A stretch of DNA of 37,598 nucleotides from a virus, in the IMG/VR virus record IMGVR_UViG_3300022839_000043, positions 1-37,598 of that record, one strand, 5' to 3'. The notes under the pieces are model-generated. The model ran no database searches and was not told the DNA's origin. It saw only the letters and a list, made by a program, of their open reading frames with translations. Made by a program: the position numbers and the translations under genes. The stretch's first letter is position 1, and each line of letters starts with the position of its first letter. Below are positions 11,813 to 28,241 of this stretch, piece by piece.

Positions 11813-11897
11813 TGGTGGGGGGTGGATGGGTTCGAACCAACACACTTTACAAACTTGTTTACAGCCAGCCGCGCCTCACCACCTGCGCCGCACCCCC
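11813..11897 (-). tRNA. tRNA-Tyr (GTA), somewhat degenerate
   Basis: 85 nt as in a class II tRNA. The acceptor GGGGGTG pairs fully with CACCCCC. The D stem is GCGC/GCGC. The anticodon loop CTGTAAA with anticodon GTA is the same as in bacterial tRNA-Tyr. A long variable arm follows, then the T arm GTTGG-TTCGAAC-CCATC and a genomic CCA. Odd points: one mismatch in the anticodon stem, one in the T stem, C instead of T at position 8, and one extra nucleotide before the ACCA end. It may be functional or decaying. Confidence 0.6.
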
Positions 11898-12017: not shown

Positions 12018-12091
12018 TGGCGGAGGTACTAGGAATCGAACCTAGCTCTAGGGTTTTGGAGACCCGCGTGTTACCGATACACCATACCAAC
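12018..12091 (-). tRNA. tRNA-Trp (CCA)
   Basis: 74 nt including a genomic CCA. The anticodon arm CGGGT-CTCCAAA-ACCCT has anticodon CCA and a loop identical to bacterial tRNA-Trp. D arm GTGT...ACAC, T arm CTAGG-TTCGATT-CCTAG perfectly paired. The acceptor GTTGGTA against TACCTCC has two mismatches (positions 2-71 and 3-70), and pair 27-43 is C-T. It starts 4 nt after the small terminase stop, within the late operon, so it is probably processed from that transcript. Confidence 0.8.
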
Positions 12092-22891: not shown

Positions 22892-23074
22892 ATGGATAAG
22901 ACAGTAGCTCGGTGGACTGGGTACGTCTATGGGGGTGATTACGGCGATCATGTTTATGTGGAAGAAGACCCAGATGGGGACTATGTTAGTTACGAAGACT
23001 ACAAGGTTCTGCTAGATGAGTGTGACAGTTTACGTGGTATGATTAAAAACATCGAGGTATTCTACGATGAGTGA
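22892..23074 (+). CDS. Small acidic unknown protein
   Basis: 60 residues from the ATG at 22892, preferred because GGAG stands 9 nt before it; an in-frame ATG lies at 22877. Acidic: TGYVYGGDYGDHVYVEEDPD, then a helix (YKVLLDECDSLRGMIKNIEV). It overlaps the primase-helicase start by 8 nt and heads the replication operon. Function unknown. Confidence 0.6.
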   Translation: MDKTVARWTGYVYGGDYGDHVYVEEDPDGDYVSYEDYKVLLDECDSLRGMIKNIEVFYDE

Positions 23075-24656
23075 CCACCACCACCTAGAGTGTCCCTATG
23101 AGAGTTGTGGCTCTAGTGACGCCTTCAGCTACAACGATAAGGGGTTTGGTAAGTGTCACTCATGTGGGGAACACTACCCTGCCAACAGGAAGATGTTTAG
23201 TTGGGCCAAGGAAAAGTACCCTACTGACGGAACAATAAAAGCCTATAACAGCGGGGGTTATGATTTGTCGGAATACAAGACTGAAGTAGAAGAGGTCACT
23301 GGTAGGGGTGCATATGTCAACATGCGAGGTATCAACACTAAGACCATGGAAGACTATGGTGTACTGACTTATAGTAACCGACAAGAGTATAAGTACCCGT
23401 CCGGTGGAATTAAGGTGCGTACACTGCCAGAGAAGGGTTTCTATGCTAAGTCTGGCTTTAAGGGTGATGAACTATTCGGTATGAACCTGTTTACTGCTGG
23501 TAGTTCTAAGATGGTTACTATTACAGAGGGTGAACTATGTGCTATGAGTGTCTCACAGATGTTAAAGAGTGGTTATACCAATCCTGTTGTGTCTGTTCCT
23601 TCAGCAACACCAAGTCGTAAACTGTGGGAGAACTGTAAGGAGTGGCTTGATAGCTTCGAGAAGATCATCCTGTCTATTGATAATGATGCTGCTGGTGATG
23701 CTCTAGTTGAGAAGATGTTGGACCTCTTTCCTAACAAGGTCTACCGTGTAAATCACTCTCCCTACAAGGACGCTAATGACTTCCTACAGGCAGGTAAGGC
23801 AGCAGACTTCAAGGCAGCATGGTGGAACGCTAAACGACCCTCTCCAGCCGGATTTACCTCTGGTACTGAGTCGTGGATCAAGGCAGTACGTGAGGAAGAC
23901 CCCTACAGCTATGTACCTACCCCGATCAAGGGACTTAACGATAAGATCAGGGGTTGGGTTAAGGGAGGTATCACAGTTATTAAGGCACCGCCCGGCGTGG
24001 GTAAGACAAGTATCGTTCGATATGCCCAGTATGACCTCGTTCGTAACCAAGGGCAGGTAGTAGCTAACCTAGCAATGGAAGAAATGAGGTCCACAACAGC
24101 AAGGGGTCTAGCAACATACGAGCTTAAGGCTAATGTTAATACCCAAGAGGATGCTGATTTAAACGGTTTCGACTTGGGTAAGGTAGAGCAGGCTGTTATT
24201 GATGTTGTGGGTGATGATAGGTTCATCGGTTTTGATATTGACCCTAGTAACCCTCTTGAGTCGTGCCTCACACAGTGTCAACATGCTGTAGCTATCTATG
24301 GTGCGGATTACATCTTCATCGACCACCTACAACGCCTAGCATACCTCTCTGGTGTTGACAATGCTACTGGTGGCCTTACTGAACTTGGTGTTAAGCTAGT
24401 AGAGTTTGCTAAACGTAAGAACGTGGGTATTGTAGCTATCTCACACGTAAATGGGGATGGTCACACTAAGTATGCTAAGGCTATCGAGGAAGAGGCTATC
24501 ATCCTGATTGAGCTAAAGCGTGATAAGCTAGCAGAGGATATTGAAGAACGTAACACTACGCAACTGACAGTTACTAAGAACCGTCCTTTTGCCTTGACGG
24601 GTGAAGCAGGTTCGATTAAGTATGATAGTGACACAACAATGGTAAGAGGAGAGTAG
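23067..24656 (+). CDS. Primase-helicase (T7 gp4-like)
   Basis: 529 residues. N-terminal zinc finger with Cys9, Cys14, Cys30 and Cys33; TOPRIM with TITEGELCAMS (Glu154) and SIDNDAAGD (Asp205, Asp207); linker; then a RecA/DnaB-type helicase with Walker A APPGVGKTS (307-315), Walker B YIFIDHLQ (about 415-422) and a late VTKNRPFALTG motif. It should unwind DNA and make primers for the phage polymerase. The start overlaps the previous gene; the stop is 2 nt before the exonuclease part of the polymerase, and the two could be translationally coupled. Confidence 0.92.
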   Translation: MSDHHHLECPYESCGSSDAFSYNDKGFGKCHSCGEHYPANRKMFSWAKEKYPTDGTIKAYNSGGYDLSEYKTEVEEVTGRGAYVNMRGINTKTMEDYGVLTYSNRQEYKYPSGGIKVRTLPEKGFYAKSGFKGDELFGMNLFTAGSSKMVTITEGELCAMSVSQMLKSGYTNPVVSVPSATPSRKLWENCKEWLDSFEKIILSIDNDAAGDALVEKMLDLFPNKVYRVNHSPYKDANDFLQAGKAADFKAAWWNAKRPSPAGFTSGTESWIKAVREEDPYSYVPTPIKGLNDKIRGWVKGGITVIKAPPGVGKTSIVRYAQYDLVRNQGQVVANLAMEEMRSTTARGLATYELKANVNTQEDADLNGFDLGKVEQAVIDVVGDDRFIGFDIDPSNPLESCLTQCQHAVAIYGADYIFIDHLQRLAYLSGVDNATGGLTELGVKLVEFAKRKNVGIVAISHVNGDGHTKYAKAIEEEAIILIELKRDKLAEDIEERNTTQLTVTKNRPFALTGEAGSIKYDSDTTMVRGE

Positions 24657-24658
24657 TT

Positions 24659-25108
24659 ATCAAAGTACAAGTTTTTGACATAGAAACGGATGGTCTCCTC
24701 GAAGAACTAACTAAGGTACATGTTGTGTCGTGGACTTCAGATGGAGAGACTATCCAACATACACACGACTACGGGGAAATGCGTAAGTTCTTCGAGGATG
24801 CAGATGTCCTTGTAGGCCACAACATAGTTATGTTTGATGTTGTGGCTGTTGAACGTGTGCTAGGTATTAAGATCAAGGCAAAATTGGTAGATACTCTTGC
24901 TCTTAGTTGGTATCTAAACTATGACCGTATGAAGCATGGTCTTGAGAGCTACGGTGAGGACTATGGGGTGCCTAAGCCTGTGATTAAGGACTGGCACTCG
25001 CTTACACCTGAAGACTACGCTCATAGGTGCGATACTGATGTTCAGATCAACTGGCGGCTATGGAAGTCACTAGAGATTAAATTAGGGAAGTTGTACGGAT
25101 GGAAATGA
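24659..25108 (+). CDS. DNA polymerase I, 3'-5' exonuclease part (separate frame)
   Basis: About 149 residues from ATC at 24659. Exo I is KVQVFDIETDG with the catalytic Asp and Glu, Exo II is VLVGHNIVMFDVVAVE, Exo III is YAHRCDTDV. The first ATG/GTG/TTG in frame is GTG 24725, which would remove Exo I, so the gene probably starts at ATC 24659 (or GTT 24656), 7 nt after GGAG, or is reached from the helicase frame by a shift. The frame ends in the first codons of the methyltransferase gene. The polymerase domain follows in two further frames, so this is a fragment of a family A polymerase. Confidence 0.75.
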   Translation: MKVQVFDIETDGLLEELTKVHVVSWTSDGETIQHTHDYGEMRKFFEDADVLVGHNIVMFDVVAVERVLGIKIKAKLVDTLALSWYLNYDRMKHGLESYGEDYGVPKPVIKDWHSLTPEDYAHRCDTDVQINWRLWKSLEIKLGKLYGWK

Positions 25109-25833
25109 ATCTTATGCTAGGTGATTGCCTAGAGCGTATGAAAGAGATACCCGATGGTAGCGTAGATATGGTCCTGACCGATCCTCCCTACGGCACCACG
25201 GCTTGCAAGTGGGACAGCGTTATTCCTTTTGAACCGATGTGGGAGCAACTCAAGCGGATAGTAAAGCCTAGAGGGGCTATCGTGTTGACAGCTTCGCAGC
25301 CGTTCACTTCGGCGTTGGTGATGAGCAATGCGGCAATGTTCAGGTATTGCTGGGTTTGGGAGAAATCAAAGGCAACAGGCTTCCTCAACGCCAAAAAGCG
25401 TCCGCTGGTTGCCCATGAAGACGTGTTGGTTTTCTGCCAATCTGTTTCAGCATATAATCCACAAAAAACAAGTGCCGCAGCATACGATAAGGGTGTGCGT
25501 AAGGCGCAAACGGAAAATGACGTGTACAGTAAATTTGCACAAGTTGGCGTCAAAAGTAGCGGCGAACGCTACCCTAGATCGGTGCAGTATTTCAAGACAG
25601 CAGAGCGAGAGGGCGGGTATCACAAGACCCAAAAGCCCGTTGCGCTGATGGAATACCTAATCAAGACATACACAAACGAAGGTGAAACCGTGCTGGACTT
25701 CACAATGGGCAGCGGTACTACAGGTATAGCTTGTGTTAATACTGAAAGAAACTTTATAGGTATTGAGATGGACCAAACTTATTTTGATATAGCTAAAGGT
25801 AGGATTGAAGATGCAGAAGCAGCTAGACGATAG
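25099..25833 (+). CDS. DNA methyltransferase (beta class, DPPY) inserted in the polymerase locus
   Basis: 244 residues. DPPY at 28-31 comes before the SAM-binding motif DFTMGSGTTG (200-209), the beta-class order for N6-adenine or N4-cytosine methyltransferases. ASQPFTSALVMSN and LNAKKRPLVAHEDVLVF are typical of this phage group. It overlaps the exonuclease frame by 10 nt and the polymerase frame by about 23-29 nt. The central part (about 25190-25715) is GC-rich while both ends use AT-rich phage codons, a mosaic suggesting recombination with another allele. Sequence specificity cannot be read. Likely protects phage DNA. Confidence 0.85.
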   Translation: MEMNLMLGDCLERMKEIPDGSVDMVLTDPPYGTTACKWDSVIPFEPMWEQLKRIVKPRGAIVLTASQPFTSALVMSNAAMFRYCWVWEKSKATGFLNAKKRPLVAHEDVLVFCQSVSAYNPQKTSAAAYDKGVRKAQTENDVYSKFAQVGVKSSGERYPRSVQYFKTAEREGGYHKTQKPVALMEYLIKTYTNEGETVLDFTMGSGTTGIACVNTERNFIGIEMDQTYFDIAKGRIEDAEAARR

Positions 25834-26728
25834 TGCATGGAAGTTAATCGACTATCTTACGTTCAAGATGCAGTGTGCTAGTGAACAAGAGCTTACTAAG
25901 TGGAAGTTGGACGTAGAGCTTACACAAACGTCTTATGATGAGATTATGGCCCTCAAAGATGAGAAGGTCAGTCAACTAGCAGAGGCTATGCCACGCAAGC
26001 AACTAACTAAGGTCGCAACACAACCAAAGATCATGTATAAGAAGAATGGTGATCTATCCGAACTTGGTCACAAGTGGTTTGCCTTGTGTAAAGAGAACAA
26101 GCAACCTAAGACTTCCCTCTCTTTTGTTGTGAAAGTGGGTGAGGAACTTGGGAACCCTAATAGTACAGATCAGGTTAAGGACTGGTTGTATTCACTAGGT
26201 TGGCAACCACGTACCTTTAAGTTTTTACGTGACAAGGGTACTGGGGACGAACGTAAGATCGAACAGGTGCGTAAGGACGGAGAACTGTGTGAAAGTGTGC
26301 TAGAGCTATCTGAGGCTGACCCTGCTGTAGATGTACTTGATGGTCTGACTGTACTGACACACAGGGCAGGTATCCTTAAGGGGTTCCTAGATTCTCATAA
26401 TGGTGGTTATCTAAAGGCAGGTATTGCAGGTTTTACTAACACCTTCCGGTTTAAACACAAGAAGCCTCTGGCTAACTTACCTAGTGTAGATAAGCCCTAT
26501 GGTAAGATCATACGAGGGGTGCTTACCTGTGAGGAGGGTGAGGTGCTGTGTGGTTCGGATATGATTTCACTAGAGGATACTACTAGGCGACACTACGTTA
26601 AACCCTTGGACCCAGTTTTGGTGGAAGAGCAAAGCCAGAAAGGTTATGACCCACACTTAAAGATTGCTGTTCGTGCTGGTATGTTAAGTGAGGAAGATTA
26701 TGAGTTCTACACAAATTATAAAACCTAG
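25811..26728 (+). CDS. DNA polymerase I, central part with motif A (separate frame)
   Basis: 305 residues from ATG 25811 (a TTG stands at 25805). It contains thumb-like sequence (WFALCKENKQPKTSLSFVVK), the stretch LANLPSVDKPYGKIIRGVLT and polymerase motif A in a phage form, GSDMISLEDTTRRHY, then YDPHLKIAVRAGMLSEEDYE. It stops at TAG 26726 just before the part that carries motif B. The frame cannot polymerise alone, because motifs B and C are in the next frame. See the 34-nt segment entry for a way both may be joined. Confidence 0.85.
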   Translation: MQKQLDDSAWKLIDYLTFKMQCASEQELTKWKLDVELTQTSYDEIMALKDEKVSQLAEAMPRKQLTKVATQPKIMYKKNGDLSELGHKWFALCKENKQPKTSLSFVVKVGEELGNPNSTDQVKDWLYSLGWQPRTFKFLRDKGTGDERKIEQVRKDGELCESVLELSEADPAVDVLDGLTVLTHRAGILKGFLDSHNGGYLKAGIAGFTNTFRFKHKKPLANLPSVDKPYGKIIRGVLTCEEGEVLCGSDMISLEDTTRRHYVKPLDPVLVEEQSQKGYDPHLKIAVRAGMLSEEDYEFYTNYKT

Positions 26729-26758
26729 TGGTGTCTCAGGATAACTGTCGCTGAAAAC
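26725..26758 (+). other. 34-nt segment separating two polymerase frames, flanked by AAAAC repeats
   Basis: AAAAC occurs at 26720-26724 and 26754-26758. If the 34 nt from one repeat to the other are skipped, the reading ...NTNYK side continues as YK-TQGDQMQSESNQERYNRI without a stop, joining motif A to motif B as in intact polymerases. The segment contains the TAG and a hairpin GTGT-TCAG...CTGA-ACAC (26731-26760). Options: a recent insertion that broke the gene, a ribosome bypass like T4 gene 60, or an assembly error. Confidence 0.6.
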
Positions 26759-26771
26759 ACAAGGAGATCAA

Positions 26772-27302
26772 ATGCAAAGCGAATCAAACCAAGAGAGGTA
26801 CAACCGTATTCATGCAGTACGTAAGAAAGCAAAAGTTGTAACCTACAGTGCCATGTATGGGGTTGGTTCAGCCAAATTAGCTCGTGAGACTGGGACGACA
26901 CGTAAGCAAGCACAAGCCCTACTAGATGCCTTTTGGGGTATTAACTGGGCTGTAACTAAAATTGCTGCTAGTGCAGAAAAAAAAGAACTGTTTGGTACTA
27001 TGTGGGTACGCAACCCTGTCTCATGTTTCTGGCAGCAACTCAGGACAGAGAGAGATGTTTGGTCTACCCTCAACCAAAGTACAGGGGTTTACTGTTTTGA
27101 TACTTGGGTAGGGTTCTGTATGGAAGGTGGTATGAAGTTGACTGCCAGTTTCCATGATGAGGTAGTTGCAGGTTGTGTTGTAAAAGGCGACTTGGATATG
27201 GTACTTAAAGTTGCGATGGACAAAGCTAATGAGAAGCTAAAGCTAAATGTTAAGCTGGGTCACGACACTCAGTATGGTAAGAACTATGCAGAAATACATT
27301 AG
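26772..27302 (+). CDS. DNA polymerase I, C-terminal part with motifs B and C
   Basis: 176 residues. RKKAKVVTYSAMYGVGSAKL is motif B (O helix, with Arg/Lys and YG), and TASFHDEVVAG is motif C with the catalytic Asp. An AAGGAG lies 6 nt before ATG 26772, so separate translation is possible and a two-subunit enzyme cannot be excluded. The frame is open upstream only to 26745. It ends in YGKNYAEIH. The reading frame differs from the preceding part. Confidence 0.85.
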   Translation: MQSESNQERYNRIHAVRKKAKVVTYSAMYGVGSAKLARETGTTRKQAQALLDAFWGINWAVTKIAASAEKKELFGTMWVRNPVSCFWQQLRTERDVWSTLNQSTGVYCFDTWVGFCMEGGMKLTASFHDEVVAGCVVKGDLDMVLKVAMDKANEKLKLNVKLGHDTQYGKNYAEIH

Positions 27303-27313
27303 GAGACGAAACA

Positions 27314-27412
27314 ATGAAACAAACACGCAAGGGCGCACTGCAAGAGTTTCTGGCAATCATCGAAGCGGTTTCCGCAGCAAATACAACAACGGGACAGGAT
27401 CAAATAATATGA
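27314..27412 (+). CDS. Small unknown 32-residue protein
   Basis: MKQTRKGALQEFLAIIEAVS then AANTTTGQDQII. AGGAG lies 8 nt before the ATG and the stop overlaps the next start (ATGA). Mostly helical with a basic N-terminus. It opens a GC-richer block of three genes (27314-28241) lying between the polymerase and the SSB operon. Confidence 0.5.
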   Translation: MKQTRKGALQEFLAIIEAVSAANTTTGQDQII

Positions 27413-27888
27413 CCGACACACTTAGCACGCTGTATGACCTGCACGTCAAAGAAGGTGACAAGGTTTTCTTCAAAGTTGACAACAGCACAGGGACACACGT
27501 AATCGGGAAGCCGCACAAGGTTTCTGAACTAAACGCGGGCGCTAGGATTTGGAGCATCGTTTCCCGAGCATCCGACACCCCGACAAAATGGGCAGACATG
27601 ACGCCGGAGGAAAAGGGCGCGCTGTTGCTGGCGAAACATGAGGGGGTGGTTATCCAGAGGTTATCTGGAGGTTTATGGGTAGAAGTTAACCCAAATTGGA
27701 GCCCCTTAGGAGCTTACCGCGTAAATCCAGAACCAAAGCGTGAAACGGTGACTATGGTTGGTTATGAGATTAACGGTTGGTATTTTGCCGAAAAAAATAG
27801 TCAAGCCGTTGACACCCACCGCATCACATTCGACACCATCGACGGCGAGCCTGACTGCGCATCAATCCGCATGGAGCTCCTGACATGA
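27409..27888 (+). CDS. Unknown protein with a W..MTPEEKGALLLA domain
   Basis: 159 residues from ATG 27409, chosen for its 4-nt overlap with the previous gene. First part: LHVKEGDKVFFKVDNSTGTH, beta-rich. Second part: KWADMTPEEKGALLLAKHEG, then LWVEVNPNWSPLGAYRVNPE. A similar second part (MTNSERGELLTAYLDG...YRIKPKPP) occurs in the protein at 33146, so both carry a related domain that is common in phages and of unknown role. Composition is mixed GC-rich and AT-rich. Confidence 0.6.
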   Translation: MTDTLSTLYDLHVKEGDKVFFKVDNSTGTHVIGKPHKVSELNAGARIWSIVSRASDTPTKWADMTPEEKGALLLAKHEGVVIQRLSGGLWVEVNPNWSPLGAYRVNPEPKRETVTMVGYEINGWYFAEKNSQAVDTHRITFDTIDGEPDCASIRMELLT

Positions 27889-28241
27889 ACAACAACAAAA
27901 TGCTGGATAAGATTGCACTGATTCACGCGCACGAGCGCAGGTCTGAATGGGCTGACGCACAAGACTTTCATGCAGCAGATGCCATTATTGCCGCCCTGCC
28001 CGATATGATTGCGCCGCTGGTTTGGGAGTCGTGCGGAGGTTCGCACAAAGTGGAATCTGTAGTAGGAACTTACAGAATTGAGGTAGGGCCAAACCAGTTG
28101 GAAACAGGCAAACCTCTTATCGGCTGGGCGCATAACGATGAATACGCTTATCACCACGGTGAACTGGCTGACACCTTGGAAGCCGCCAAAGCCGCCGCCA
28201 ACGCCCACCACCGAGCCTCTATCATGGAAGCATTTAAATAG
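27885..28241 (+). CDS. Unknown small phage protein (ALPDMIAPLVWE type)
   Basis: 118 residues. ADAIIAALPDMIAPLVWESC followed by YRIEVGPNQLETGKPLIGW and an Ala-rich C-terminal helix (ADTLEAAKAAANAHHRASIM) resembles small phage proteins with a helix, a LVWE turn and a short beta sheet. Function unknown. 4-nt overlap with the previous gene. GC-rich compared with the genes on both sides, and followed by a hairpin. Confidence 0.6.
   Translation: MNNNKMLDKIALIHAHERRSEWADAQDFHAADAIIAALPDMIAPLVWESCGGSHKVESVVGTYRIEVGPNQLETGKPLIGWAHNDEYAYHHGELADTLEAAKAAANAHHRASIMEAFK

Follow-up and report, generated by a model that had tools for sequence, protein, structure and literature searches.

A short gap in a phage family A DNA polymerase gene is most likely the scar of a deleted HNH endonuclease gene

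Introduction

In the Aeromonas phage Aeh1, the free-standing HNH endonuclease gene mobE divides nrdA, an essential enzyme gene, into two open reading frames (ORFs), and the split ribonucleotide reductase is active (PMC2988022). In the account given there, the two products of the divided gene 43 of Aeromonas phage 25, 43A and 43B, co-purify and have polymerase activity, the gap in gene 43 of phage 44RR is an untranslated spacer, and it is left open whether the endonuclease made the split in these phages or invaded a gene that was already split. In phage T4, a homing endonuclease has split the topoisomerase gene (the mobA region), and gene 60 carries a 50-nt non-coding insert that ribosomes bypass, aided by matched GGA codons, by stem-loops and by a nascent peptide (PMC5009743). 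Split RNR genes have been described, some of them with short unexplained spacers (PMC3653736), as has a family B polymerase that a split intein divides (PMC6892783), and 29% of the IPA-HNH endonuclease genes in one published set lie near DNA polymerase genes (PMC10448857). In the Methylophilales phages MEP401 and MEP402, a family A polymerase occupies two ORFs (PMC10580990). We considered MEP401 (OP830906) as a parallel to the gene studied here and rejected it: unlike in our gene, the break precedes motif A and encloses a 77-aa ORF; it does not fall between motifs A and B.

Our locus lies in a 37,598-base stretch of viral DNA (IMG/VR virus record IMGVR_UViG_3300022839_000043; G000 in our set), which we call the window. 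Like gene 43 of phages 25 and 44RR, as these are described, it has a phage replicative polymerase gene in two parts, probably with two chains as its products. Unlike gene 43, which encodes a family B polymerase and in phage 25 is accompanied by a seg-type endonuclease, the polymerase of the window belongs to family A, and its spacer can be traced to an endonuclease gene that has probably been deleted. The arrangement resembles Aeh1 nrdA/mobE in that a free-standing HNH endonuclease gene divides the gene for an essential enzyme; it differs in that mobE is still present in Aeh1, according to the published description, and the gene divided there is nrdA. T4 gene 60 and mobA likewise combine an endonuclease-split gene with a short non-coding insert, but the window lacks the codon and peptide features reported for gene 60, and its potential fold is not significant. 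None of the literature matches listed, which we judged by titles and the opening lines of abstracts and which come mostly from outside the subscription journals, describes such a scar in a family A polymerase.

Results

Open reading frames and profile matches place the DNA polymerase of the window in pieces: an exonuclease part that ends at 25108, a methyltransferase gene at 25099-25833 that follows it, and two further ORFs on the plus strand, pol-N and pol-C. Pol-N (25805-26728) is the first portion of a DNA polymerase of family A (T7/Pol I-like). It starts at TTG 25805 or ATG 25811, matches PHROG 17 with an E-value of 2e-35, carries motif A (GSDMISLED) and ends in ...YTNYKT before its stop codon, TAG 26726-26728. 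Pol-C (26772-27302, 176 aa) matches Pfam DNA_pol_A (E 1e-10) as well as PHROG 17 and carries motif B (RKKAKVVTYSAMYG) and motif C (FHDE). The three motif labels are our own presumptive assignments, on the pattern of family A polymerases. Reading the sequence directly, we found the frame of pol-C open from 26745, with an AAGGAG at 26761-26766 ahead of the ATG at 26772-26774. An earlier note on this DNA, made from the letters alone, had placed the stop of the motif A frame and the opening of the motif B/C frame at these same positions, and both sequence and translation bear it out. The spacer between the pol-N stop and the pol-C ATG (26729-26771, plus strand) thus measures 43 nt, or 46 nt with the stop codon included. 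Within PHROG 17, a DNA polymerase profile, pol-N matches positions 832-1056 and pol-C positions 1061-1233; because these matches adjoin, almost no polymerase sequence is missing between the halves. Together the two span a protein that is uninterrupted in the profile and in the alignment with the fused polymerase of the relative L004 and others.

The same polymerase has a second break at 25099-25833, where the gene between the exonuclease part and pol-N encodes an N6/N4 DNA methyltransferase. At the corresponding place, a small ORF with the end ...KCIKDNE is found in L003 and L004, and in L002 the two parts directly overlap. L006 has a single ORF here, and the annotation of phage CRP-6 gives one polymerase CDS. 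This second break looks like another site of gene swapping.

We collected relatives by protein searches of viral contigs, taking the best 80 of 213 confirmed loci for one half and the best 80 of 311 for the other. Combined, these gave 151 distinct loci, of which 5 hold one half only and 146 hold both; since a contig can contribute several overlapping pieces as loci, the count of loci is not a count of contigs. Across the join, 134 of the 146 two-half loci in this best-80 sample are uninterrupted, with neither a stop nor a frame break, and 12 have extra sequence. The extra sequence comes to 46 nt, as in the window, in L001, L085, L003 and L081, to 485 nt in L002, L082, L006 and L007, and to 453-455 nt in L008, L129 and L077. 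In L149 it is a longer linker that stays in frame, and we dropped this locus as a case of an inserted gene. We also dropped L029, which the screen described below had flagged as split, as a split at the join, which it reads through; its polymerase is open apart from a single in-frame stop further downstream, 3' of motif B (..RE*FGSMW..), which may be genuine or may stem from a sequencing error.

The uninterrupted polymerase is found in the close relatives L004 and L005, whose DNA is 91-96% identical to that of the window in the matched pieces of 23067-27321 that lie outside the tract discussed below, and 68% identical at 27574-28027. The split form with the 46-nt gap recurs in L001, in which pol-N and pol-C are 100% identical to those of the window, and in contig L003, which is 97.6% identical to the window over 1494 nt and has TAA as its stop codon where the window has TAG. 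Because both have the same 46 nt, the gap is not the error of a single contig, and the alleles of this type are known from three records (the window, L001 and L003), L001 and the window being the same wherever they were compared. In a scan of viral contigs, three contigs, one of them endonuclease-bearing, contained a 28-nt pattern drawn from the 3' part of the scar; one scan of genome contigs yielded no relatives of pol-C. A single metagenome, 3300028369, yields both the scarred, split allele (L003/L154) and a fused allele (L083), in related phages that are 92.8-96.6% identical over their two longest matched pieces.

The origin of the gap can be read from L002, in which pol-N is 95% and pol-C 97% identical in amino acid sequence to the halves of the window and the join measures 485 nt instead of 46 nt. 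The alignment of the window, L003 and L002 contains one indel at the site, a stretch of 439 nt that is present in L002 and absent from the other two. In L002, these 439 nt complete a 187-codon ORF (ATG 3490 to stop 4053) that begins within the end of pol-N and extends beyond the ATG of pol-C. PHROG 374 identifies this ORF as an HNH endonuclease (E 6e-57), as it does the ORF in L006 (E 9e-56); a Pfam search returned no match for either of the two. The L002 endonuclease also weakly matches (E 0.002) the homing endonuclease structure 1u3e, which we take to be I-HmuI.

The window keeps the first codons and the last 30 residues of this endonuclease. In the alignment to L002, the 5' remnant of the gene occupies 26690-26744 (plus strand) and comprises a Shine-Dalgarno-like GAGGAAG and an ATG at 26700, in an out-of-frame overlap with the end of pol-N; its reading frame now runs for 14 codons (MSSTQIIKPSGVSG) and then meets TAA 26742-26744. 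By tblastn, residues 1-19 of the L002 endonuclease match 26700-26756 (E 0.002). The 3' remnant (26740-26824, plus strand) retains the C-terminal codons ...ITVAENTRRSNAKR... and the former stop, TAA 26822-26824, and overlaps the start of pol-C, again out of frame; here, residues 158-187 match 26732-26821 with 93% identity (tblastn, E 3e-13). The deletion junction, where the 439 nt of L002 are absent, falls at 26739-26740 with an ambiguity of 1 nt (G), and the blastn pieces meet at 26739. A full endonuclease ORF between the polymerase halves is absent from the window and present in L002, L006/L007 and L173. Elsewhere in the window, tblastn with E-values up to 1 found none of the nucleases tested, and the ends of the L002 endonuclease occur at this site only. 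Because the window retains just both ends of an L002-type endonuclease ORF, we interpret the 46 nt as a deletion scar. The earlier note had listed a simple insertion among its alternatives, and this holds in outline; the details point to the insertion of an endonuclease gene followed by an internal deletion.

A homologous endonuclease occupies the same place in distant phages: that of L006/L007 (the same contigs as L165/L166) is 58% identical in amino acid sequence to that of L002, and that of L173 is 59% identical to that of L006. Because these homologues share the site, the endonuclease-bearing split is best read as older than the divergence of the window and L002, and the state of the window as a loss. 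The converse, a 439-nt insertion that completed a conserved ORF by chance, is not credible.

Group I introns and inteins are well known in phage polymerase genes (cited in PMC10580990 and PMC6892783), and an intron, an intein or an error of sequencing or assembly might be invoked for the gap. At 46 nt, however, the gap is short (for inteins, the argument is one of gap size), and an Rfam search of the whole window at gathering thresholds returned two tRNAs and no self-splicing intron. Moreover, the same gap is present in contig L003 with one substitution, and that substitution aside, the ends of the L002 endonuclease gene account for the gap sequence. This group of explanations is exceedingly improbable. 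The two tRNA genes, Tyr (gta) and Trp (cca), lie on the minus strand at 11817-11897 and 12018-12091.

The earlier note had likened the gap to the translational bypass of T4 gene 60: ribosomes would leave the message close to the TAG, pass over 34 nt and resume at a second AAAAC, producing one fused polymerase. Part of what it described is there. The AAAAC copies lie at 26720-26724 and 26754-26758 as it said, but the 34 nt that they were said to flank run from start to start, with 29 nt between the copies. Omitting 34 nt does join both frames as described, the stop lies near the putative take-off, and a hairpin is a possible fold. Yet an in-frame repeat of at least 5 nt across the stop arose in 1832 of 5000 shuffled sequences (37%), and the hairpin is not significant over shuffles, whether folded as the 52-nt segment of the window (z -1.36; 20 of 200 shuffles fold as well), as the same segment of L003 (z -1.09; 27 of 200) or as 91 nt (z +0.33; 120 of 200). 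The copies of AAAAC and the arms of the hairpin sit on opposite sides of the 439-nt junction, and would thus have been brought together by the deletion. The exact matched take-off and landing codons of gene 60 are absent, as the note itself had remarked: the codon before the TAG is ACC, which does not occur in 26729-26771, and the AAA that does have a match is followed by ACC, not by a stop. Furthermore, the last 40 residues of pol-N contain no KKYK-type nascent peptide motif, pol-C has an ATG and a Shine-Dalgarno-like site of its own, and L002 keeps both frames even with a 485-nt gap that holds the endonuclease gene. The alignment to homologues, which the note had proposed as a check, shows an open join in most loci and, against L002, the absence of 439 nt. 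A gene 60-like bypass is not supported and appears highly improbable; the alternatives named beside it, an insertion and two subunits, fare better.

The sequences that flank the site differ in their affinities from the rest of the gene. The DNA of the window is 93% identical to that of L004 over 25820-26649 and 91% identical over 26982-27321, and no blastn piece covers 26650-26981. From blastn, protein comparison and trees, we delimited a presumed co-conversion tract at 26650-27062 (plus strand). In the tract, up to RDVW (27062), the nearest protein after those of L002 and L003 is that of L006 (68% amino acid identity), and L004 is absent from the eight rows nearest to the window; downstream of the tract, the proteins of the window and L004 match at 100% identity. 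The block is not a clean one: KELFGTMW (26982-27005), inside it, is common to the window and L004 and is not found in L006.

For the trees, we started from a split screen of the 151 loci and three named phages, which after removal of incomplete or identical rows (L005 among them, as identical to L004) left 101 rows, 8 of them flagged as split. The trees contain 41 rows, made up of the window, 11 chosen loci and 29 of 89 others that remained after dropping those at least 90% alike; they leave out L001 (the window's twin), L173 and L174. Inside the tract, the window, L002, L003 and L006 form a clade (100/99.9), and holding the window, L002 and L003 with L004 costs 39 log units, a marginal result at p-AU 0.046 with an unsettled bootstrap; L004 is a long branch here and may itself have changed. 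Outside the tract, in a quick search run without bootstrap, the window, L002, L003 and L004 form a clade (SH-aLRT 100), and a grouping with L006 is rejected (p-AU 0.0003). The window is L006-like around the site and L004-like elsewhere, a mosaic that would fit homing with co-conversion. The trees and the distribution of alleles suggest that an L006-like donor supplied the endonuclease together with polymerase DNA on its flanks.

The loop between motifs A and B has also received an unrelated gene. An endonuclease VII-like gene lies at this place in L008 (1143-1580), L129 (4920-5357), L077 (1100-1534) and L174 (2571-2966), and the polymerase is split in each. The nucleases of L008, L129 and L077 match Pfam Endonuclease_7 (E 3e-18 to 5e-23), and that of L174 is 66% identical in amino acid sequence to that of L008. 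These genes are an independent invader of the same site. In the outside-tract tree, L008 groups with L009, L129 with L026, and L077 with L078/L080; because the carriers group apart, their three nucleases look like separate arrivals. In an AlphaFold2 model of the fused L004 polymerase (mean pLDDT 89), the site corresponds to a short loop, residues 304-309, that connects two helices; motif B lies on the second. The model superposes on T7 DNA polymerase 2ajq (Z 31.5, 4.9 Å over 414 residues) and on the Klenow structure 1d8y (Z 30.6, 2.9 Å over 379 residues). A phmmer search of PDB sequences with the fused L004 polymerase returned nothing at E 0.001, and a profile of 24 polymerases did match.

Between the window and L003, both of which are scarred, dN/dS is 0.18 for pol-N and 0.185 for pol-C. 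These values derive from a small number of changes; in pol-C, 7 codons differ synonymously and 5 non-synonymously. Synonymous codon changes exceed the neutral expectation in both halves, with 17 of 29 in pol-N (p 1.5e-5) and 7 of 12 in pol-C (p 0.005), where the p-values compare the codon counts with the synonymous share of single-base changes. Values of dS against L006 were saturated, and we left them out. Because the DNA of pol-C is identical in L003, which has the scar, and L002, which has the endonuclease, the alleles must have been shuffled by recombination; some of the changes may therefore predate the deletion, and the pol-C comparisons of the window with L003 and with L002 count as one. 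With this caution, the values show purifying selection on both polymerase halves, at a dN/dS of about 0.2.

The split polymerase could also be a decaying gene, non-functional and made dispensable by the host's or another polymerase. The loss of the endonuclease gene shows that deletions happen here, and the exonuclease part, too, stands apart, with the methyltransferase gene in between. By contrast, a decaying gene would not be expected to show the low dN/dS and significant synonymous excess between scar alleles, nor halves that jointly span the family profile with motifs A, B and C kept, nor split alleles that stay open even between the window and L006 (55% and 63% amino acid identity). We consider decay very unlikely.

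The best-supported reading is that of two subunits, the second most likely starting at ATG 26772, behind the Shine-Dalgarno-like site and within what were the last codons of the endonuclease. This site (AAGGAG, 26761-26766, plus strand) is aligned in the window, L003, L002, L006 and L173, in all of which AAGGAG or AGGAGG precedes the ATG of pol-C. In L002, L006 and L173, the same bases encode an Arg-Arg of the endonuclease (AGG AGA or AGG AGG). The deletion left the site intact.

Discussion

We conclude, with a probability of roughly 0.9, that the 46 nt are the scar of an endonuclease gene, that the polymerase most likely consists of two cooperating chains, and that the gap is most likely not skipped by the ribosome. 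The sequence comparisons suggest the following course of events. An HNH endonuclease gene, arriving with L006-like flanks, would have inserted into the loop between motifs A and B and split the family A polymerase into pol-N and pol-C, its own ORF overlapping the pol-N stop and the pol-C start. In the lineage of the window, and likewise in L001 and L003, the gene would later have been deleted with the loss of 439 nt. Pol-N would end by termination at TAG or TAA, and to make pol-C, ribosomes would re-initiate at ATG 26772, just after AAGGAG, either independently or by coupling. The two chains would then join into one active polymerase, an assembly that purifying selection and the precedents of other phages make plausible.

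In closely related phages, one polymerase gene occurs in fused, endonuclease-bearing and scarred form, and these three states suggest how the split of an essential gene can persist once its selfish element is gone. They bear on the question, left open for phages 25 and 44RR in the account cited above (PMC2988022), of whether the endonuclease splits a gene or invades one that is already split. The Arg-Arg codons of the endonuclease, which double as the ribosome-binding site of the downstream half, suggest that this half may be expressible at once. Tentatively, and with considerable doubt, we propose that the homing cycle can come to rest in the scar allele, a stable end-state in which a two-chain family A polymerase outlives its parasite and bears no endonuclease cost. 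Such an allele would be immune to re-invasion because the leftover ends keep the target site interrupted. If this is true, such relics could be a general origin of phage genes that are split for no evident reason.
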